Shown here: one piece after another, positions 1 to 9,803 of the stretch
Position numbering within the stretch: the stretch's first letter is position 1
Layout of the letters: each line of letters opens with the position of its first letter
Source of the DNA: an uncultured bacterium
GTDB lineage: Bacteria > DRYD01
Length of the DNA stretch: 10,113 bases
Assembly: GCA_937139605.1 (NCBI GenBank)
Contig: CAKZQG010000042.1
Location: 1-10,113 of the forward strand
Reading direction: 5' to 3'
Program-made: the position numbers and the translations under genes
The notes under the pieces: model-generated
Databases searched by the model: none
Seen by the model: the letters and a program-made list of their open reading frames with translations, nothing else
What the model was told of the DNA's origin: nothing

Positions 1-825
1 TTTTTAGCTAATAAAGTGTATAATCCATTTGATGTGTTGTTATATTTAGATAAGAAGGAGATAAGGAATTATTGGTACGAAACAGGAAGGACCGAGTTTT
101 TATTTAAAATAATAAAACAAAAAAACTTTGATCTACCTTATTTACATAAGAAATACTATACAAGTGAAATATTAGAGAAGTTTGATATAGAGTATATAAG
201 TATAGAAGCGTTAATGTTTCAAACAGGGTATTTAACAATAAAAGAAGAATATAAGTATGAAAATGAGGAAGTATTGTATTCATTAGATTATCCGAATAAA
301 GAGGTAAGAAAATCATTTAATAGTGAGATATTATTTTATATAACAGGAGATTACCAAATAGATAAAACGACATTAATAAATATAGCATTTAAAAGAGAAG
401 ATCTACAAGAGATAAAAAAACAAATAGAAGTGTTTATAAATACAATAAGCTATGAAGTATTAAAAAATGAGTATGTATATTCTGCAGCGATATATGGATT
501 AGTATATGCAACGGGATATAATGTAATAATAGAAGATAACACATCAAAAGGGAGAATAGATTTAACAATAATAGTGAATAACAAATTAGTATATATAATA
601 GAGTTCAAAGTAATATTAACATATAACTCAGATAACTCAAATAAGGCAAATATAGAATTTTTCGTTATAGAGAAGAAAGAAGAAAAAGGGAAAGCGTTAA
701 AACAAATCAAAGAAAAAGAGTATCACAAAAAATATCTAAATTATGAAAAAATTTATCTTGTAGGAATAGAGTTTGATAAAATAAATAAAAATTTAGTTAA
801 TTTTGAGTATGAGATAGTTAGGTAG
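1..825 (+). CDS. AAA-ATPase-like / PD-(D/E)XK nuclease family protein (DUF1703 type), 5' partial
   Basis: The reading frame is open to the left edge, so the gene begins outside the window. A GTG at 16 gives a 269-residue product, but the frame continues upstream without a stop and no ribosome binding site precedes it, so it is probably not the real start. Numbering from that GTG, residues 1-110 resemble the middle of DUF1703 proteins (NPFDVLLYLD, FQTGYLTIKE, YPNKEVRKSFN). These are the lid and linker that follow an N-terminal P-loop ATPase domain. Residues ~150-265 form a PD-(D/E)XK nuclease-like domain: KGRIDLT supplies D182 and the strand YIIEFK supplies E196 and K198, followed by the usual ALKQIKEKEY helix. 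Between them sits a polar stretch (residues ~201-222) that looks longer than usual. Family members are often multicopy in thermophile genomes and their biological role is poorly known. The family assignment is confident; cleavage activity is inferred from motifs only. Confidence 0.85.
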   Translation, partial: FLANKVYNPFDVLLYLDKKEIRNYWYETGRTEFLFKIIKQKNFDLPYLHKKYYTSEILEKFDIEYISIEALMFQTGYLTIKEEYKYENEEVLYSLDYPNKEVRKSFNSEILFYITGDYQIDKTTLINIAFKREDLQEIKKQIEVFINTISYEVLKNEYVYSAAIYGLVYATGYNVIIEDNTSKGRIDLTIIVNNKLVYIIEFKVILTYNSDNSNKANIEFFVIEKKEEKGKALKQIKEKEYHKKYLNYEKIYLVGIEFDKINKNLVNFEYEIVR

Positions 826-859
826 TTTTTTTTAACTAAGTAATGTTTTTAAGTGATGG

Positions 860-1930
860 TATTTAAAATAGTACATTTAAGATTTCTGGATTTTTTGAGT
901 TGTATAGACCTCTTATTTTCTAGTAGCTCATACGGGATAAGAGAATCTTATTATTAATTGGTAATGGGTAATCTCTTTGAGAAATTACCATATTCCCTGG
1001 TTTTTAATATTATTACTCTTTTCTTTAGTTTATCATTTAGAAACGAATAATAGCTTTTAGATATTTTGTCGGATCTTCAACCCACTTTTATCGCATAATT
1101 AGATAGTATTCTGTTTTCTACTAATGATGCAGTTTGCTGATCTCCTATTAGTATTATTCCTAAACTTCTCTACCACGCTCTGAAATATCTATTAGTATAT
1201 CCTTTATTGGAGTATCTACATTACCTGGAGCATATTTATTTAATTCATCTATTACAAAGAAATATTTATTTAAATCCTGTTCTTCTTCTTTTTTTTGATA
1301 TATTAAATATGAAATGGCGGATACTACAAAGCTTTAGGCTTTTTCCGGTAGACTATGGACATCTATTACTGTTAAGCTGCTATTAATTATTTTTTCCATT
1401 ATATTAATTTTATCGTTAGTAATTGAGGAAACTAAGAAATTGCAATCTTTTTTGATTTTCCTAAATCTTCTTAGGAAAGCAAAAATGGTTCCTGGGGCTT
1501 CATTTATTTCACTCCTATTTATTTTTAAATATTTTTCTAAATAATTATACAAATCTTCTAAGTTTTCTAATTGAATTTTCTTGTCTTTTATTTTAACAAT
1601 TAAAATTTCTTTATTATATAGTTCTTTATCATTTTGGATAATATAACCTAATAATATAGCTTAAATGTTTTTCTATATAAAAAATTATTTCTTCTAAATT
1701 TCAGTCATCTTTTATTTCATTAGTAAAGAAGAATTTAAATAAATTATTTTTAGCTATTTCTGATAAAGTAAAATAATATAAATATGAAATGATGGGGATT
1801 ATTTAGAGTATCTTTTTCTTTTAATATTGAATTTTCTAGAGAGACTAATATTGATACGTTTTTTGAATTCTTTAGACTTAAGTAGCTCATATTCTTTTAT
1901 TATTTGCTCTTTGATATAATAAAAATGTAG
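860..1930 (-). pseudogene. HerA-like ATPase (DUF87/FtsK-HerA family), degraded C-terminal remnant
   Basis: No intact gene reads here, but the minus strand keeps recognisable HerA-type blocks in shifting frames. In order they are APGTIFAFLRRF (~1470-1505), a strand-like VIDVHSLPEKA ending in TAA at 1334-1336, a Walker B segment FFVIDELNKYAP (~1225-1266), DISERGR, the sensor-like block [12 protein letters not shown] (~1124-1160), MVISQRDYPLPI, and FSYPV-stop-ATR (~919-945). The last matches the conserved PAWATR-type end of bacterial HerA-like ATPases with Trp changed to TGA. I count at least two frameshifts and four in-frame stops (1334, 1160, 1077, 928). A 72-codon open stretch (1334-1552) is the longest surviving piece. 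No Walker A P-loop is visible, so the N-terminal half seems lost. HerA proteins are hexameric DNA translocases that work with a nuclease. The assignment is by motif recognition; the boundaries are approximate. Confidence 0.75.
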
Positions 1931-1934
1931 ATTT

Positions 1935-2345
1935 AACAATTAAACATAATAGCTTTATATGTATGTGCTTGGAAAGATTTTTAGAACAATGAGAATAATA
2001 GGAAGATAGAAATAGTTATTTGTTAGCAATCCTGAATATAGTGCTAATTCAATGTGATTTAGATTAGCTTTATATACTTCATTAGTTAGGTTTGATGGAA
2101 TATAAATTTCTAGTTTTATCCTTGTTGTTATCACTTTTGTAACTGAGATATTTAAAACTGAGATATTTAAATATGGTCTTTAATTATTATAGGTTAATAT
2201 ATCTACTACTATCCCAATAATGATAGATTTCTATATCTTTTATTATAGTTTTTGGATATGCTATATCATCTAATTGTATTAATTTATCTAAAAGCAAAAT
2301 CCATTTTGTTTGTTTTATGTTTTTTTTACTTTTAGGATTTTTTAA
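1935..2345 (-). pseudogene. Degraded ORF remnant, possibly NurA-like nuclease C-terminus
   Basis: On the minus strand, fragments read like the end of one protein in at least three frames. They are WILLLDKLIQLDDIAYPKTI with IYHYWDSSRYINL (~2170-2310), RPYLNISV...KLEIYIPSN with LALYSGLLTNNYFY (~2000-2170), and AHTYKAIMFN followed by TAA (~1938-1970). The order and the ending (a short strand with Tyr/Pro, then an Ala-His helix and a beta strand) resemble the C-terminus of NurA 5'-3' nucleases. NurA genes usually sit directly beside herA, which supports the reading given the HerA remnant just downstream. The catalytic N-terminal region is not visible. The block also carries a tandem 15-base duplication at 2141-2170. 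It could instead be the N-terminal part of the same HerA-like gene or an unrelated ORF, so the identity is tentative; the degraded state is clear. Confidence 0.4.
2141..2170. repeat. Perfect 15-base tandem duplication inside a decayed ORF
   Basis: AACTGAGATATTTAA occurs twice, head to tail and without mismatch, at 2141-2155 and 2156-2170. On the minus strand it encodes a repeated LNISV. It is a multiple of three and so does not itself break the frame. It probably arose by replication slippage in the decaying gene. Confidence 0.9.
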
Positions 2346-2459
2346 GGAGTGTTTTTTAGATATTTTAATTCTTAATTATTTTTTATAGAAAGTATACTTT
2401 TTATTTTGTAGTTTTTGAAGGAAGATATGATAAAGTTTTTAATATAATTAATATAAGGA

Positions 2460-3803
2460 ATGGGGAATATAGCATTTATTGGTGGTGGGATAACTGCATT
2501 ATCTGCAGCTTTTTTAATAAAAAAATACTATTCAAATAATTATGATATTTACATTATAGACAAAGACATTGGCGGAAAGATCAAGACTAAATTATTAGAG
2601 TTTAATGGTAATAAATATTTTATAGAGCTTGGACCTGATTCATTAGTATATAATGAAAAATTTAATAAAATTAATAATGAATTTCAATTATCTACTTTAC
2701 AACCTATTTTTTCTAATAATAACCCTAATTATGTATTTTTTAGTAATAAAATATATAAAATTCCAAACAACATAATAGATTTTTTACTTTCTAATCTGGT
2801 TTCTTTTAAATCTAAACTAAATTTTATATTTAATCTATATAAAAAAATAGAGTATGATCTAAATGATACTTTATTAACTTTTTGTCAAAAAAATTTTAAT
2901 AAGGAGTTTAATGAAAATATTTTATTTCCTATTTTTTCTAATGTTTTTTCTACTGATATTGATAAATTAAGTATTATTCCATTACTACCTTATTTAAAAA
3001 ATATAAAAAAAAATTTATTAAAAAGTAAAGCTACTATTTTTTTTAACTTTAAAAATGGTTTGCAATCTTTAGTTAATTATTTTTATCAATTTTTAATAAA
3101 TAATGGTGTAAAATTTGTAAATGATTACTTAGTTAATTTTAAATCCGATAAAGAAAAATACATATTAAAAACAGAAAAAACAGAGTTAATTGTTAATAAA
3201 ATATTTTTTTGTATCCCTGCTTTTAATTTAAATGATGTAATTAATAATTCATTAAATGATTGTAATAATGAAAATTTTTTAGAGTTATTAAAAGAATTAA
3301 CTGAGCTTTTAAAAAATATTTCTTATCATAGCTCCTTTATTTATATATTAATTTTAAATAATTTTTTTGACTTAAAAATAAATGGATTGCTTTTTAAAAA
3401 TCATGAAATCTTTAAAGCTATTTCGTTTTTTAACAAAAAATGGAATAATTTAATATCAAATTATAAGTTTAATAATAACTCTATAGAATTTTTAAGGGTT
3501 TTTTTAAAAGATGATTTTAATCTTGATCTAAAAGATCTTATAAATGAATTAAACAAAATTACTTTATTTAAAAATGTTAAAATAGAGGATATACTTTATG
3601 GTGAATACGTAGAGTGGCAACACGCAATCTTAACTAATAATGTAAATTTATTTAAAGTTTTAAAAAATATTGAAACAGTATCTGAAAAATTAAAGGATTA
3701 TAATATTTATATTTTGGCTAACTTTATAAAAGGAAGTTCCATTATAGATAGACTTTATAATTCCATTGAATTTGTTAATACTAATTTAAAATATTTTAAA
3801 TAA
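2460..3803 (+). CDS. hemY: Protoporphyrinogen oxidase, HemY type (FAD-dependent)
   Basis: A 447-residue protein, about the usual length of oxygen-dependent protoporphyrinogen oxidases. These oxidise protoporphyrinogen IX to protoporphyrin IX in the penultimate step of heme synthesis, at the inner membrane. The FAD-binding Rossmann motif is at the N-terminus (IGGGITALSAA, residues 7-17, with Ala where the third Gly is common). It is followed by the acidic strand end and IDKDIGGKIKT (33-43) and the family signature ELGPDSLV (56-63). W386 lies in EYVEWQHAI, matching the region before the C-terminal FAD contacts. ANFIKGSSIIDR (420-431) matches the usual GN.f.G....dC/R block. The sequence is extremely Asn/Lys/Ile/Phe-rich. 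An in-frame TAA at 2454-2456 forces the ATG at 2460, although AAGGA runs straight into it, giving an abnormally short spacing. It is probably cotranscribed with malQ. A related FAD amine-oxidase/desaturase role is less likely but possible. The gene is called hemG in some annotations. Confidence 0.85.
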   Translation: MGNIAFIGGGITALSAAFLIKKYYSNNYDIYIIDKDIGGKIKTKLLEFNGNKYFIELGPDSLVYNEKFNKINNEFQLSTLQPIFSNNNPNYVFFSNKIYKIPNNIIDFLLSNLVSFKSKLNFIFNLYKKIEYDLNDTLLTFCQKNFNKEFNENILFPIFSNVFSTDIDKLSIIPLLPYLKNIKKNLLKSKATIFFNFKNGLQSLVNYFYQFLINNGVKFVNDYLVNFKSDKEKYILKTEKTELIVNKIFFCIPAFNLNDVINNSLNDCNNENFLELLKELTELLKNISYHSSFIYILILNNFFDLKINGLLFKNHEIFKAISFFNKKWNNLISNYKFNNNSIEFLRVFLKDDFNLDLKDLINELNKITLFKNVKIEDILYGEYVEWQHAILTNNVNLFKVLKNIETVSEKLKDYNIYILANFIKGSSIIDRLYNSIEFVNTNLKYFK

Positions 3804-3827
3804 CTAAATAAATCAAAAAATAAAGAT

Positions 3828-3833
3828 AGGGGG
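3828..3833 (+). promoter_or_regulatory. Ribosome binding site of malQ
   Basis: AGGGGG lies seven bases before the ATG at 3841 and fixes that start. It sits inside the 37-base gap after hemY, with no obvious promoter or terminator in between, which supports cotranscription. Confidence 0.7.
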
Positions 3834-3840
3834 AATTTAT

Positions 3841-5373
3841 ATGATTATAAAAAGAAGTAGTGGAATACTTTTCCCAATTTTTTCTTTTCCATCTTGTGAT
3901 GATTATGATATATTTATAGGGGATTTTACTACTATATATAAGACTAACTTTATTAATTTAATAAAAAGTTTAGGGTTTTCTAAAATCCAAATATTACCAA
4001 TTAATCCAGTTTGTAATTTATCTTTTTCTCCTTACAGTAGTTATTCTGCTTTTGCTGGTAATCCTTATTTTATTAGCATTTATAAACTAATTCAAGATGG
4101 ATTAATTTCTCCTAACGAAGTAAATAATATTTTAAATGAAATTATTAATAAATACTCCCTAGTAGAATTACCTTTAGATAAAGTACATTATAACTTAGCA
4201 TTTGAATTTAAAGATAAAATCTTAAGATTAGTTTTTAACAATTTTAAAAATTCTAAAAATAATACTAAAATTGAGCTAGAATTAGAGATATTTAAAAACC
4301 AAAACAATTATTGGATTAATGATTATGCTGTTTTTAAATATTTAAAAAAGATTAATAACAATCAAAGTTGGAACAACTGGAATTTAAAATTTAAAGAACA
4401 TATTAATTTAAATGATTTAGATAGAAATGAAGTAGAATTTTATATTTTTGAACAGTATTTATTTTATAAACAGTATTTTGAAATAAAAGAGATCTTAAAT
4501 AATGAAGGAATAGAAATTATAGGGGATATTCCGATATATGTTTCATATGATAGTGTAGATGTATGGGCTAATAGAGAATTATTTAAATTAGATAATGAAG
4601 GGAATATGTTAGCAGTTGCAGGAGTCCCACCTGATTATTTCTCTGAAACTGGTCAGCTCTGGGGAAACCCTATTTATAATTGGGAGGTATTAGCTAAAAC
4701 TGGCTTTAAGTGGTGGATTAAGAAATTACTGCATTCATTTAAAGTATATGACTTAGTTAGGATAGATCATTTTAGAGGGTTAGTAGCATTTTGGGAGGTA
4801 CCTGCTTATGAAAAAACTGCCATCAATGGGAAATGGACTAATGCTAAACCTTATGAACTGTTTAATACTTTATTAAACTATAAATCAATATTGCCTATTA
4901 TTGCGGAAGATTTAGGGGTTATAACTGAAGATGTTGAACTTTTTAGACAACATTTTTATATACCTACTATGAGGGTTCTACAATTCGCTTGGGATAATAT
5001 TGATACTAACCCACATATCCCCCATAATTACCCTTCTAATAGTGTGGTATATACTGCTACCCATGATAATAATACTACTAAAGGCTGGTTTTTAAATGAA
5101 GCTTCTTCTTATCAAAAAGAATTAATTAATAAATATTTTGCTAAAGAAATAACTGAACATAATATTTCTATCGAATTTATTAGATTAATATTATCATCTA
5201 ATTCTAATTTAGCTATTATTCCTATTTTTGATTTATTAAATTTAGATCAAAATTATAGGATTAATAAACCAGGAAGTATTGAAAACAATTGGGTATATCG
5301 TGATAACTTATTCTTTAACATCAATAATGATTATAAAAATTATATTTATGAGCTAAATAAAATTTATAGATAA
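3841..5373 (+). CDS. malQ: 4-alpha-glucanotransferase (amylomaltase, GH77)
   Basis: A 510-residue cytoplasmic enzyme of typical bacterial MalQ length. It transfers alpha-1,4-glucan segments between maltodextrins and releases glucose, serving glycogen or maltooligosaccharide turnover. Family landmarks are in order. The N-terminus is RSSGILFP, followed by ILPINPV and SPYSSYSAFAGNPYFIS (~51-79). GDIPIYVSYDSVDVWANREL (228-247) and the 250s loop AGVPPDYFSETGQLWGNPIYNW follow. RIDHFRG holds the nucleophile D309, IIAEDLGV holds the acid/base E356, and TATHDNNTTKGW holds the transition-state Asp D409. All three catalytic carboxylates are present and the reading frame is intact, so the enzyme is probably active. 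Trp is encoded by TGG throughout, showing standard decoding. It lies downstream of hemY in what looks like a two-gene transcript and converges on cas5 with a 114-base gap, in which I see no convincing terminator hairpin. Confidence 0.96.
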   Translation: MIIKRSSGILFPIFSFPSCDDYDIFIGDFTTIYKTNFINLIKSLGFSKIQILPINPVCNLSFSPYSSYSAFAGNPYFISIYKLIQDGLISPNEVNNILNEIINKYSLVELPLDKVHYNLAFEFKDKILRLVFNNFKNSKNNTKIELELEIFKNQNNYWINDYAVFKYLKKINNNQSWNNWNLKFKEHINLNDLDRNEVEFYIFEQYLFYKQYFEIKEILNNEGIEIIGDIPIYVSYDSVDVWANRELFKLDNEGNMLAVAGVPPDYFSETGQLWGNPIYNWEVLAKTGFKWWIKKLLHSFKVYDLVRIDHFRGLVAFWEVPAYEKTAINGKWTNAKPYELFNTLLNYKSILPIIAEDLGVITEDVELFRQHFYIPTMRVLQFAWDNIDTNPHIPHNYPSNSVVYTATHDNNTTKGWFLNEASSYQKELINKYFAKEITEHNISIEFIRLILSSNSNLAIIPIFDLLNLDQNYRINKPGSIENNWVYRDNLFFNINNDYKNYIYELNKIYR

Positions 5374-5487: not shown

Positions 5488-6186
5488 TTATATCCAAAAG
5501 ATTGGAATATTTTCAATAGGATCTAAAGCTATATTTTCATTTACTTCTAATATTTGATCTTTTAAAACAAACATAGTTCTTATGTAATCATAAGTTTTTA
5601 TAATATTAGGTTTTTTAGATATATATTCTGTTGTTTTGTTATAATAATAAGGAATGCTATAAATAGGATTTATTATTTTGTCTTTTATTACATTTTTAGA
5701 AAAGTACTTTTCAAAAGGGATGTAGTGATTATACTCTAGTTTTATAAGACTAACATTTTCAATAGTTTCTTCTATTTCTTGAATATTTAAGTAGTTTATA
5801 ATATCTTCATATCTTCCTAAGTATAGAAAATATGGGGGATTTTTAAAGCTTTTTATTAATTCGTTATTTAAATTTTTATCAGGTAGCTTTATATAAATTA
5901 TGCTTTTTAAGTTTAATAAAGATGATACTAAAATGGGATAATTTTTTGATTCGTTTTTAGAAATCTTTTTATAAACTACTGTTTCTCTTATAATGCTTTC
6001 ATATTCCCCACATATTGATAAGTTTATATTCCATATAGTTTCTTTTAGATTTAATACATTATGTAATAGTCCTAAAATAGAGGAAAAAGGGGGTAGTGGA
6101 TATGTTTCTACAAATTCAAAAGAATACGGGATTCTAAAGCTAACTTTCTCCTGAAATATTTCCAATTTTATTATTTTATTGCTCAT
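5488..6186 (-). CDS. cas5: CRISPR-associated protein Cas5 (type I-B, Tneap/Cst lineage)
   Basis: A 232-residue RAMP-fold protein. The N-terminal block FRIPYSFEFVETYPLPPFSSILGLLHNVL (a shared Cas5 pattern: strand, then Y-P-x-P-P-ST-x-x-G-L-L, residues ~18-45) is the standard Cas5 signature. In Cascade, Cas5 caps the 5' end of the crRNA and anchors the large subunit. No catalytic His arrangement of the Cas5d processing type is evident, and a Cas6 exists in the operon, so processing by Cas5 is not expected. The start is supported by AAGGGGG (RBS at 6193-6199, about six bases upstream). It is the last cas gene read in the operon, 70 bases after cas7. The gene that would normally follow, cas3, is absent; the tail converges on malQ instead. 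The family is confident; the exact Cas5 subfamily (Cas5t versus Cas5h) is inferred from its neighbours. Confidence 0.88.
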   Translation of the reverse strand: MSNKIIKLEIFQEKVSFRIPYSFEFVETYPLPPFSSILGLLHNVLNLKETIWNINLSICGEYESIIRETVVYKKISKNESKNYPILVSSLLNLKSIIYIKLPDKNLNNELIKSFKNPPYFLYLGRYEDIINYLNIQEIEETIENVSLIKLEYNHYIPFEKYFSKNVIKDKIINPIYSIPYYYNKTTEYISKKPNIIKTYDYIRTMFVLKDQILEVNENIALDPIENIPIFWI

Positions 6187-6256
6187 ATTTTTCCCCCTTA
6201 GGAATATGTATCTTTTTAATGATTAAGTATATATATAAATAAAGTGAAAAATATAA

Positions 6257-7159
6257 TTAAAATATTTGTTCTAGATCTGATTTAATTTTATCTATTACTT
6301 GGGTAGGGGATAAAGATATATTTATTTCATTATTATCTATGTTTAGTTTATTATTTAATATACCGATGTGGGTAAAATCTTTTATGAAGAATTTTTGAGA
6401 ATTAATTTCATATTGAGAATTCAGGATCTGATTAATAGGGTCAAATTTTATTGTAGGCTTTTCTAATGAAAAATCTATTTCAATAGAATTAGAAAAGAAA
6501 GGAGATTTTATATGGTATATTCCACCTATTACGAATAGTGGGCTTAAGTTTTCTCTTCTTCCCCTTATATCTCTATATAAATATTTGGTAGCTTCTAAGA
6601 TTAGATTTATTCTTTTTATTTTTTCTTCTCTGCTTAGGTTTATGTTAAAGTTCTCATCTACTCCTATTTTATCTAAATCTATTGTTAGAGTATATTTATA
6701 TAAATTTAAAGCTGTTTCTATGTTAGCTAAGTTAGGGTTATCATTAACTCTATCTGCAAAGTTTTTGTTATTAAGTAATTCATAATCTCCGTAGTATTTT
6801 TCTAGTGATATTAGATGACTTAATCTAACGGGAGCTGTTCTTGTTAGTGCTTTTTCTCCTTTAATTGTTATCATATACCCAAATAAATCGGCTTCTTCGT
6901 AGTAATATTTTTTTAATTCATCTTCTTTATATTGGATTACTCCTTTTTCTTTAGTTAATGGAGCTTCATTAATTAGGTTATGTTCTAATAGGTAGTTAAT
7001 TAAAGAATATCTAAGGGATTGTCTGGAGGAAAATAAATAAGCTTCTCCGTTCGCTCTGTGAATTTTTTTAGCTACAGATATATTCCCATATCCTTCATCG
7101 TAATTGGTAGGGAACGCCTCTATTATATATGTCAATGTTAATCCATACCTTTTATCCAT
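6257..7159 (-). CDS. cas7: CRISPR-associated protein Cas7 (Cst2/DevR family), Cascade backbone
   Basis: A 300-residue protein of the Cst2/DevR Cas7 group. Subunits form the helical backbone that binds the crRNA spacer. Recognisable blocks are GYGNISVAKKI and NGEAYLFSSRQSLRYSL (residues ~23-53), EEADLFGYM (88-96), TRTAPVRLSHLISLE (106-120), LYKYTLTIDLDKIGV (153-167) and RGRRENLSPLFVIGG (199-213). The last, with the APVR-x-SH block, is highly typical of Cst2 from Tneap-type I-B loci. An RRM-like core with a thumb insertion is expected. The start is clear: AGGAGG at 7170-7175 is ten bases upstream, and the preceding 62-base gap to cas8 holds a poly-T/TATTAATTAT duplication. The frame is intact. 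Autoregulation of Cas genes by DevR homologues has been proposed for Myxococcus, but nothing here shows it. Confidence 0.93.
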   Translation of the reverse strand: MDKRYGLTLTYIIEAFPTNYDEGYGNISVAKKIHRANGEAYLFSSRQSLRYSLINYLLEHNLINEAPLTKEKGVIQYKEDELKKYYYEEADLFGYMITIKGEKALTRTAPVRLSHLISLEKYYGDYELLNNKNFADRVNDNPNLANIETALNLYKYTLTIDLDKIGVDENFNINLSREEKIKRINLILEATKYLYRDIRGRRENLSPLFVIGGIYHIKSPFFSNSIEIDFSLEKPTIKFDPINQILNSQYEINSQKFFIKDFTHIGILNNKLNIDNNEINISLSPTQVIDKIKSDLEQIF

Positions 7160-7184
7160 AATTTTATATCCTCCTTTTTTGTCA

Positions 7185-7217
7185 TTTTTTTATTAATTAT
7201 TTTTTTTTATTAATTAT
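7185..7217. repeat. Short direct repeat in the cas8-cas7 gap
   Basis: TTTTTTTATTAATTAT-like units occur at 7185-7200 and 7202-7217 (17-base period) between cas8 and cas7. In so AT-rich a context this may be slippage without function. As mRNA it would be an unstructured A/U-rich stretch ahead of the cas7 ribosome binding site. Confidence 0.6.
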
Positions 7218-7221
7218 TATT

Positions 7222-7605
7222 TTAATTGTTTTCAGGGATATTTTCTAAGGAAATATTTTCGGGAGAAATATTTTCTTGGGAAATATTTTCTGGATAGTTT
7301 TTTATGTAGGAATTATCTGTGGGATTAATGAAGCCTGTTATAAATGCTAATGCCTTTTCCTGGAATGTTAAATAATTACTTTCATATAGTATATTTTTGA
7401 TAGCTTCTGGGATTGGTTTATTATATACTACATATAGTCTAAGTAATTCATTATAAAAATCTTCTTTTTTATTGCCCTTTACTAGGTTAAGGAATCTAAA
7501 AGCGATGGAAGTTCTTTTATTTTGATTTATTTCGGATATTGTGAAACTATTGGCTGCTTCTCTTTCTATTGATTTTATTATCCCGTATATTTTATTAATA
7601 TCCAT
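7222..7605 (-). CDS. cas11: Cas11-like small subunit from an internal start within cas8
   Basis: Inside cas8 and in the same frame, the ATG at 7605 (Met472 of Cas8) is preceded at a six-base spacing by AGAGGTGAT. This is a nearly perfect match to the 16S anti-Shine-Dalgarno and stronger than the site of the full-length cas8. Translation from here would give a 127-residue, predominantly helical protein (start MDINKIYGIIKSIEREAAN, then helices up to ~105 and the ENIS repeat tail). Size, helical character and position agree with Cas11, which lines the belly of Cascade. Internal translation of Cas11 from the 3' end of cas8 is established for type I-B, I-C and I-D systems. No separate small-subunit gene exists in this operon, so this product would fill that gap. 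Seen here: the site, spacing, frame and length. Inferred: that it is translated and joins the complex. Confidence 0.72.
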   Translation of the reverse strand: MDINKIYGIIKSIEREAANSFTISEINQNKRTSIAFRFLNLVKGNKKEDFYNELLRLYVVYNKPIPEAIKNILYESNYLTFQEKALAFITGFINPTDNSYIKNYPENISQENISPENISLENIPENN

Positions 7606-9018
7606 AAGATTATCACCTCTTTCAGATTTTTTGTTTTTTTCTATTATTTTATTACTTACTAAAAAGTTTAGGTAAATTAAATTCTTTATGGATAGTAAAT
7701 AATAGAATTCTTTTTGAAGAAATTGTTTTAGTAAATGTATTATTAATGGAATGATATTATTTTGGTAGGTAAGGTTTTTTATAGTTTCATTTGCTAAATT
7801 TATCCTTTCGTTTTTGTAATTAATAGTTATATTTAAACTTTCTATTAATGATTTAATTAGGTTTTGGTTTTCTTGATATAGTTCTATTAGGATTGGATTT
7901 ATGTAGAAAAAAGTAAATTTATGATTTTTCTCAAGTTTTCTACCAGGATTTATTTCTACTATATAGACATTGTTTATGTAGTAATTTAGTTTATTTAATA
8001 TTTCAGTGTTTTGAGTTAGGTTTTCTAATATTTTTATAAATGTTTTATTTTGGAGATCTTGGTTTAATTTTATTATATCAGTTAATAAGGGGGCAGATAG
8101 GAATATATAATTAGTTTTGCTAGTATCTTTATCTTCTTTTTTGGTGAATCCTGCAAATGAACATAGTAATATTAATTCACATATTTTACATTTTAGGTTA
8201 TAATGTTTGTTATTATCTTTATAAAAGTAAAAGTAGTTTATAAATTCTTTTGAACTTACTCCTAAAATTGAGAAATCTGATTCTATAAATTCACATAAGA
8301 ATTCTCTATTCTTATATTTCTTATTACATATAACACATGTATAGTATTTATTAGTTTCGTATTTATTTTGGGCTATATTGTTTAGAATTTCTGTTTCTAT
8401 TGGTTTTATATATTCCTGGTAGAATTTTTGGATTTTATCTTTTATAGGTAATTTTTGGGTTGATGGAATTGCTAATAGTGATTTATTAAAATATAATCCT
8501 TGGAAGTAGCTTAATAAATTTAGAGTGTTTATTTTTTCTATTTTTTGAGATAGTAGTTCTTTTATTTTTAATTTTTGTAGTATTGATTCTATTTCATTTT
8601 TAAATTGGATTTTTAATAAATTTTCTATGTTAGTTATAGTATTTTCTATATTTACTAAATATTCTTCAATATTGGGGTTAAATTTTATTTCATTTTCTAG
8701 GAAGTTTGTTATGCTTGATTTTATTTCTTTTAGATCGATATTTTTAGTTTTTTGTTTTTTAAATATTTCAGAGGTTATTTCGTTTGGGATTTTTTCTATT
8801 ATGTATTTTTTTATATAATATTCAAAGAATGCTATGGGGATTATTTGTAAATCTTTTATGTTTATATTTAGATAATGTTCGGTGCAATTTGGATTGATAT
8901 TAGAGAAATTAAGGATTCTATATAATCCTAATATTCCGCTATTATATAGCCAGTTAGATAGGTAAAGGTTTAGTTCTTGTAAGTTAATTTCATTTTGGTT
9001 TAAAATTATGTTATTCAT
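7222..9018 (-). CDS. cst1: CRISPR-associated large subunit Cas8 / Cst1 (CXXC-CXXC family)
   Basis: A 598-residue protein matching the Cst1 (Cas8a1/Cas8b, CXXC-CXXC) large subunit of Tneap-type I-B Cascade, which recognises the PAM and helps open target DNA. The diagnostic zinc-ribbon pairs are C228-V-I-C231 and C277-K-I-C280, separated by ~45 residues, followed by a hydrophobic CSFAGFT segment. LSNWLYNSGILGLYRIL (~20-36) is the typical N-terminal start of the family. Residues ~100-165 are helical and charged. The last ~127 residues are all-helical and appear to be also made as a separate small subunit from an internal start (see the 7222-7605 entry). The C-terminal 23 residues are a pentapeptide repeat of ENIS type. 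The ATG at 9018 has AGAGGG at 9025-9030, six bases away. It is read 42 bases after cas6. The frame is intact and the family call is strong. Confidence 0.92.
   Translation of the reverse strand: MNNIILNQNEINLQELNLYLSNWLYNSGILGLYRILNFSNINPNCTEHYLNINIKDLQIIPIAFFEYYIKKYIIEKIPNEITSEIFKKQKTKNIDLKEIKSSITNFLENEIKFNPNIEEYLVNIENTITNIENLLKIQFKNEIESILQKLKIKELLSQKIEKINTLNLLSYFQGLYFNKSLLAIPSTQKLPIKDKIQKFYQEYIKPIETEILNNIAQNKYETNKYYTCVICNKKYKNREFLCEFIESDFSILGVSSKEFINYFYFYKDNNKHYNLKCKICELILLCSFAGFTKKEDKDTSKTNYIFLSAPLLTDIIKLNQDLQNKTFIKILENLTQNTEILNKLNYYINNVYIVEINPGRKLEKNHKFTFFYINPILIELYQENQNLIKSLIESLNITINYKNERINLANETIKNLTYQNNIIPLIIHLLKQFLQKEFYYLLSIKNLIYLNFLVSNKIIEKNKKSERGDNLMDINKIYGIIKSIEREAANSFTISEINQNKRTSIAFRFLNLVKGNKKEDFYNELLRLYVVYNKPIPEAIKNILYESNYLTFQEKALAFITGFINPTDNSYIKNYPENISQENISPENISLENIPENN
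7234..7293 (-). repeat. Four 15-base repeats coding for an ENIS pentapeptide tail
   Basis: Four in-frame 15-base units at the 3' end of cas8 encode PENIS, QENIS, PENIS and LENIP, followed by ENN and the stop. The core GAAAATATT is kept in each unit while the first codon varies (CCC/CCA, CAA, TTA). The tail is hydrophilic and probably disordered. It would be present in both the large subunit and the internally started small subunit. Confidence 0.92.
7612..7620 (-). promoter_or_regulatory. Internal Shine-Dalgarno for the Cas11 start
   Basis: Read on the minus strand, AGAGGTGAT occurs six bases before the in-frame ATG at 7603-7605. In a gene this AT-rich, such a G-rich match to the anti-Shine-Dalgarno at ideal spacing is unlikely by chance. 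In frame it encodes only a plain Arg-Gly-Asp. Confidence 0.75.
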
Positions 9019-9060: not shown

Positions 9061-9803
9061 TTAAATTACATCTACCATTCCAAATCCTTCACCTGTTCTG
9101 TTTCCTATACCTTTTTTGTATAGAATTTTTAGGATAGTTTTGTCTCCAGTTATTTCTAAGATAGCGTCAAATGCTGTTATGTACATTATATTTTTGTTTG
9201 TTTTTTCTTGGAATTCTGAGAAAGTATTTTTTATTACTCGTTTTTTCCAGGAGATTATATTTATTTTTAGATCTTTGTAATTGTATCCAAGGGAGTTTAT
9301 TATTTTTTGGTGGATTTTATTGAATTCGTAATTAAAGTTAGGGTTATCGGGTAGGATTGGTTTATTATCTTTTGTTTCTAATAATATTGGGGATAGGGTT
9401 TTAAATTTTATTTTATTAGTTTTTATTTTTTTTTCTGATATGAAACCACAGTATTTTAGGGTAATGAATAGATCTTCTTGTAGGTAGAATTTATTTATTC
9501 TTATTAATCCGTTATATATTTTTATAGTTGTTTCGTAGTAGTAGTATGGAAGGTTTAGGACATTTATGTCGTAATTTTCAAGGAAACTGAACAGTAATGT
9601 GATTTTATTTTCGTTGAGGTATATTTTGTCATTATTAATTTTTCCGTTGAATTTTAAGGAAAATGTAAAGGGTTTAGTTATTTTTTAGAGTATATTTTAT
9701 CTACATCGCTTCCTAAGGATGCTTTTATTAATGAAATTATTTTTGGTCTATATATTAATGGGATGTAGTTTTTATTTACTTCATATTTTAATTTTATTCT
9801 CAT
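9061..9803 (-). pseudogene. cas6: CRISPR RNA endonuclease Cas6, interrupted by a one-base frameshift
   Basis: The minus strand starts at ATG 9803 after GAGGA (RBS ~9809-9813). It reads MRIKLKYEVNKNYIPL and continues to IYSKK, then meets TAA at 9678-9680. Adding one A to the A6 run (9681-9686), or shifting -1, restores a single ~247-residue frame: ITKPFTFSLKF, LLFSFLEN, and on to the Cas6 signature GIGNRTGEGFGMVDVI near the end, stop at 9061-9063. KPFTFS and the glycine-rich C-terminus are typical of the RAMP endonuclease Cas6, which cuts the pre-crRNA repeat and stays on the 3' handle. The rest shows no decay, so this is a recent mutation, a sequencing or assembly error in a homopolymer, or a slippage-decoded gene. 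The only His in the product is in the middle (NKIHQKI, ~residue 164). The usual N-terminal catalytic His before the KPFTFS block is not seen. First gene of the cas operon, 42 bases before cas8. Confidence 0.85.
9681..9686 (-). other. A6 frameshift site in cas6
   Basis: On the minus strand the run reads TCT AAA AAA TAA. One extra A, or a -1 slip of Lys-tRNA from AAA to AAA with a stop in the A site, gives AAA AAA ATA ACT and continues the Cas6 frame. Both explanations fit what is seen; so does a homopolymer sequencing error. Confidence 0.8.

Follow-up and report, generated by a model that had tools for sequence, protein, structure and literature searches.

The cas8 gene of a type I-B operon from an uncultured bacterium would appear to be translated twice: initiation at codon 1 would yield Cas8, the large subunit of 598 aa, and initiation at an internal ATG, codon 472, a small subunit of 127 aa, Cas11b. 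From comparisons of sequences and from structure models we estimate the probability of this reading at roughly 0.93. The window, i.e., the whole stretch of 10,113 nucleotides that was analysed, is an entire 10-kb contig belonging to a 1.88-Mb draft bacterial genome. On its minus strand the genes cas6, cas8, cas7 and cas5 were identified, in this order, by profile searches, and the following features were recognized:

9061..9803, minus strand: cas6, matching PDLC01783 in two pieces, the reading frame being interrupted once, at the A6 run 9686-9681
7222..9018, minus strand: cas8 (Cas8b, Cst1-like, CXXC-CXXC), 598 aa, from PADLOC PDLC02050 and Pfam PF09706
8143..8352, minus strand: CXXC...CXXC region of Cas8, residues 223-292, from PF09706
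7612..7620, minus strand: internal Shine-Dalgarno (SD) sequence AGAGGTGAT, from 16S complementarity and duplex energy
7603..7605, minus strand: putative internal start ATG, codon 472 of 598 in cas8, the sole in-frame start besides codon 1
7222..7605, minus strand: putative nested cas11 (Cas11b), 127 aa, from Cas11b profiles and AlphaFold2
7238..7297, minus strand: 15-nt tandem repeats, ENIS(Q/P/L) tail of Cas8/Cas11, from a repeat search; pLDDT below 50
6257..7159, minus strand: cas7 (Cst2/DevR), 300 aa, from TIGR02585 (E=2.4e-53)
5488..6186, minus strand: cas5 (Cas5t/Cas5b), 232 aa, from PF09704 (above cut-off) and TIGR01895 (near cut-off)

Judged by the profiles of Cas7, Cas5 and Cas8, the operon is of type I-B of the Cst1/TNEAP kind. 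Cas7 reached 181 bits against TIGR02585 (cut-off 72.75); Cas5 exceeded the cut-offs of general Cas5 models, including PF09704, and obtained 92.9 bits against TIGR01895, slightly below the cut-off of 96.7. Residues 16-568 of Cas8 matched the Cas8b profile PDLC02050 of PADLOC (E=3.5e-41), and the protein scored above the cut-off for Pfam PF09706 (Cas_CXXC_CXXC). No match of the window's Cas8 to TIGR01908, the model of the Cst1 family, was obtained at E 0.1; among those relatives with an unsplit cas8 which were tested, L012, L016 and L002 passed this model and L032 did not. A phmmer search of the PDB with full-length Cas8 gave no match, and no relatives of this protein were found in the viral contigs and plasmids searched. 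The intergenic gaps between cas8 and cas7 and between cas7 and cas5 measure 62 nt and 70 nt, respectively, and neither contains an ORF of at least 80 aa in the ORF list of the window; therefore the operon is without a small-subunit gene of its own, as had been stated in the initial annotation. Methionine is very scarce in the proteins of the window (16-5373 and 5488-9018), with 2 residues among the 598 of Cas8 and 1 among the 447 aa of an oxidoreductase-like ORF at 2460-3803.

The two pieces of cas6 match the Cas6b profile PDLC01783 in order, the first covering profile positions 1-38 (E=6e-6) and the second 45-225 (E=9.6e-37), and the frameshift may represent an assembly error, slippage or decay. 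Because this adjoining gene is frameshifted, the copy of the operon in the window may be decaying, while the internal site would be functional in the lineage. We regard such decay as unlikely, though it deserves more weight than the other alternatives considered below. Besides the single frameshift at the A6 run, the window is devoid of cas3, cas1 and cas2, and another complete I-B system is present in the same genome. However, cas8, cas7 and cas5 are all intact, a lone homopolymer indel may be an error of the assembly, a second Cas6, encoded on contig C26, could act in trans, and the cas3-cas4-cas1-cas2 genes on contig C6 lack Cascade genes of their own.

A CRISPR array is likewise absent from the window. 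Both cas3 and cas1 are present elsewhere in the genome, on contigs C6 and C26. On C6 (L045, G000:C6:132000-151000), cas3-cas4-cas1-cas2 are situated beside a Cmr (III-B) locus; no Cascade genes were found in this cas locus (132000-151000), and its genes may serve the Cascade of the window. The Cmr locus contains a pair of neighbouring Cmr5-like genes, of 129 and 152 aa, together with one Csx1/Csm6-type CARF-HEPN gene. Contig C26 harbours the second I-B system, with a TM1802/Csh1-type Cas8, a Csh2-type Cas7, Cas6, cas1, cas3 and a CRISPR array. This array (L046:4835-5544) lies amid the cas genes and consists of units resembling the 30-nt repeat GTTTCAATTCCTTATAGGTAGGCTAAAAC, at a spacing of about 65 nt.

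On the minus strand, AGAGGTGAT (7620-7612) is followed by the six-base spacer AATCTT and the in-frame ATG (7605-7603), so that a near-perfect SD six bases ahead of an ATG at codon 472, as claimed earlier, was confirmed in coordinates and in spacing. The 16S rRNA of the window's own genome has the 3' end GGATCACCTCCTTT; therefore the anti-SD is present, and the SD bases GAGGTGAT provide eight exact matches to it. The duplex energy of -13.1 kcal/mol is the best among the 263 ATGs of the window, both strands included. The corresponding values (kcal/mol) are -6.9 at the start of cas8, -11.8 at cas7, -10.2 at cas5 and -5.9 at cas6, and therefore the internal site does surpass that of cas8 itself, as had been claimed. 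Measured from the GGAGG register, the spacing amounts to 10 nt, which is at the long end of the range. Structure at the site is slightly above the operon average; a weak hairpin (-5.0 kcal/mol) is predicted, with the SD in its loop and the ATG partly paired. Apart from codon 1, cas8 has no ATG, GTG or TTG in frame other than codon 472, and since the proteins of the window are generally poor in start codons, the SD is more remarkable than the occurrence of Met472 as the lone internal start.

The 127-aa C-terminal product matched two Cas11b profiles of PADLOC, PDLC01193 (E=4.6e-6) and PDLC01190 (E=3.3e-5). With a three-sequence alignment (window, L012 and L013) as input, AlphaFold2 predicted a five-helix bundle for residues 1-93, with helices at 3-18, 28-43, 47-60, 67-75 and 81-93; block means were mostly 81-96 pLDDT over residues 1-90. 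The helical nature proposed for the product is thus borne out by the model. Residues from about 94 to 127 form a disordered tail, and the C-terminal tails of the relatives are likewise rich in N, E and D, with differing sequences. The model of full-length Cas8 was unusable at a mean pLDDT of 35, except that the C-terminal domain stood out: values above 50 were obtained solely at residues 479-567, just past codon 472, which fits an autonomous domain starting near that codon.

Searches with the Cas11 model gave modest scores at best. VIA-align ranked first a chain of SsoCsm that is 119 residues long (Z 5.9), and after it type III-A Csm chains, matched at about residues 652-758 (Z 4.9 and 4.3); for helical bundles, none of these scores is high enough to be trusted. 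This region of the Csm chains we take to be the small-subunit-like end of Cas10. Cmr5 was found with Z 4.2, likewise too low to be trusted and tied with an unrelated protein. Small subunits of CRISPR systems and the corresponding region of Cas10 predominate among the best matches; with Z values below the trusted level, these matches fit a Cas11 fold and do not prove it. Foldseek gave no match to the Cas11 model at E<=0.001, and a search of the PDB with the Cas11 sequence profile gave nothing credible. Of the expected Cas11 fold, then, the helical bundle and the prevalence of small subunits among the best matches were found, with modest Z values and no Foldseek match at the stated level.

Homologues with an unsplit cas8 were gathered from whole genomes and from contigs, yielding 19 genes, the window included, from about 12 lineages. 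The contig search gave three relatives, one of which, from a Persephonella MAG (L014:3998-5706), was left out of the comparison because its cas8 is broken into several frames, probably through sequencing errors. In every one of the 19 genes the strongest internal SD with a start codon is located at the linker before the same C-terminal domain. Multiplying 1/n across 12 lineages, which are diverged and not strictly independent, gives a chance probability of 10^-13.6 for such a shared position. An SD arising by chance was rejected as an explanation, since the site is the best among the 263 ATGs in the window and its equivalents rank first among the internal starts in 19/19 genes. The internal site reads CAGGGAGGGAAAT-ATG in G001, which belongs to the genus of the window, AAAGGAGTGATAGA-ATG in G084, GGAGGTTTACAT-ATG in L012, AGGAGGTTGAAGAAA-ATG in G424, CAGGAGGTGAGTACA-TTG in G290, the closest relative (48% identity in the C-terminal domain), and AAAAGGAGGTGTTAAT-GTG in G390. 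Conservation of the SD and of a start codon at the position equivalent to codon 472 is therefore complete (19/19), but that of the methionine, which had been expected as well, is not strict, with TTG in G290 and GTG in G390. Those refuting conditions of the initial annotation that could be examined all spoke for its reading. Between the start and the core of the domain there are 34-37 residues in the window and in the majority of relatives, but 41-53 in G001 and most genes of the G319 family.

The linker peptides vary among the relatives (RGDNL, RSDR, GGLH, RRLKK, QEVST, REGN), since the SD core is found in all three codon registers. In a synonymous-recoding test the choice of codons favoured the SD (combined p about 1e-7 across 12 lineages which are not strictly independent); the window gene alone fell short of significance (p=0.13), as an SD is already favoured by its peptide ERGD. 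Given the varying linkers, registers, start codons and codon choice, the constraint, as far as sequences can tell, is one acting on nucleotides. A constraint at the protein level alone was rejected for the family, by the recoding test and the variety of registers, and not from the window gene taken singly. These results also bear on the notion that the C-terminal domain is only a fused small-subunit domain of Cas8, the SD being incidental to a linker that is basic or rich in glycine (RG, GG, RR). Fusions of the small to the large subunit are known from types I-F and I-G (PMC13199841), and in the window the ERGD peptide alone would make an SD likely. This notion nevertheless seems very improbable, considering the SDs in three registers ahead of differing peptides, the combined recoding test, the start codons which follow at normal spacing in 19/19 genes, and the existence of separate cas11 genes with the same start.

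Such separate genes were found in five relatives, G097, G223, G023, G136 and G153 (loci L010, L020, L021, L022 and L023), in which a short cas8 (about 370-420 aa) is followed by a separate cas11 (106-221 aa) and then by cas7. The separate cas11 has its SD and ATG within the last part of cas8, in another reading frame, so that the two genes overlap by 4-17 nt. Among the separate products which were scanned, matches to Cas11b profiles had E values of 2.8e-57 and 1.6e-49, and of 3.5e-26 for the product of G136; in the standalone gene of G136 the start-to-core distance is 36 residues. G001, from the window's own genus, possesses the fused form with the internal SD and ATG, and its nested Cas11 shares 57% identity over 92 aa with the standalone Cas11 of G136. 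From the split genes and this identity it follows that the internal start of the fused genes is homologous to the start of a real cas11 gene; of all the evidence that can be had without an experiment, this homology is the strongest. That the SD instead has another role, such as ribosome pausing for co-translational folding or coupling to cas7, is hardly credible, although it lies exactly at the boundary of the large and small domains, since a pause would need neither a start codon at fixed spacing nor GTG or TTG in place of a lost ATG, cas7 begins 62 nt past the stop of cas8 with a strong SD of its own (-11.8), and standalone cas11 genes truly start at the same site.

Translation of cas8 from two starts could then be pictured as follows. 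A single mRNA would carry two initiation sites; initiation at codon 1 would give the 598-aa large subunit, and independent initiation at the internal SD and ATG472 would give the 127-aa Cas11b, whose sequence is that of the Cas8 C-terminal domain. More Cas11 than Cas8 would presumably be produced, because the internal site is the stronger one, and several copies of Cas11 may run along the inner face of Cascade and keep the non-target DNA strand in place, by analogy with the I-B complex of Synechocystis. For the window, we infer the use of the codon-472 site in the cell, the stoichiometry and the function. Nested and overlapping cas11 in Cst1-like I-B systems might furthermore be two states of one locus, with a fixed start, where small changes of frame at the junction join or part the reading frames and the excess of Cas11 is set in both by an internal start that outdoes that of the gene; we offer this tentatively, as a proposal with slightly less than even chances.

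A comparable site was present in the TM1802-type cas8 on contig C26 (L046:13317-15128, G000:C26), where CAGGAGGTGATAGGT-ATG at codon 454 precedes a 150-aa C-terminal product. The internal SD has -17.6 kcal/mol, compared with -8.0 at the gene's own start, and the 150-aa product is likely another nested cas11. Thus one device would appear to occur twice in this genome, in cas8 genes that are unlike each other.

Annotation calls cas8 alone, and the Cas11 subunit goes unnoticed; reconstitutions or transplants of Cascade would then omit Cas11 and could fail, as was the case with Thermotoga maritima (PMC13199841). With the site conserved over Cst1-like Cas8 proteins, exact start codons can be given for supplying cas11 as a gene of its own. 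The fused and split relatives constitute a natural experiment, in which one gene with two starts can be compared with two overlapping genes that retain the start site, and this comparison is the part likely to be of interest to specialists.

Internal translation of Cas11 is established in types I-B, I-C and I-D, according to PMC11899642 and PMC13199841 (both citing McBride et al. 2020), and the initial annotation was in agreement with these sources. The mechanism is therefore already known; in the window it is found, almost certainly, in the branch of Cst1-like (CXXC-CXXC) Cas8 proteins, for which no earlier report was found in the open-licence literature. Among open-licence papers, searched in full text, joint mention of Cas11 and Cst1 was found only in a classification paper from 2011. 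In the I-B system of Haloferax an internal Met545 yields Cas11b, which is required for interference (PMC11899642). Haloferax volcanii resembles the window in that its small subunit begins at an in-frame Met inside cas8b, close to the end of the gene, and is identical to the C-terminus of Cas8 (PMC11899642); it differs in being archaeal, with an experimentally shown product and a poor SD (GGATG), whereas the site in the window is bacterial, with an exact SD of 8 bases in a Cst1-like Cas8, and is known from its sequence.

The I-B Cascade of Synechocystis (PDB 8H67, PMC11096372) has the composition Cas8b1-Cas7b7-Cas5b1-Cas6b1-Cas11b3, and one Cas8b together with three Cas11b forms the inner belly supporting the non-target strand (PMC11096372). 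A ribosome-binding site inside the 3' end of cas8b is shared with the window (PMC11096372), although the Cas8b of Synechocystis is a Cmx8-type variant and a search with the Cas11 profile of the window gave no sequence match to any PDB chain. In the I-B system of T. maritima no detectable Cas11 was produced from the internal site in E. coli (PMC13199841). Cas11 of its I-B1 Cas8b1/Cas11 pair, predicted from an internal site, has a mass of 15.1 kDa (PMC13199841), close to what the 127-aa product should have, but PDLC02050, which is matched by Cas8 of the window, was silent in the T. maritima control genome. Also close are the standalone Cas11b proteins of type I-B (PADLOC PDLC01190/PDLC01193; G136, G097), which possess a homologous helical domain and the same position of SD and ATG at the end of cas8. 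Some of them have an N-terminal extension longer than that of the nested form in the window, and in G136 and G097 the gene has its own frame, overlapping the end of cas8 by 4-17 nt, whereas cas11 of the window would be nested in frame.
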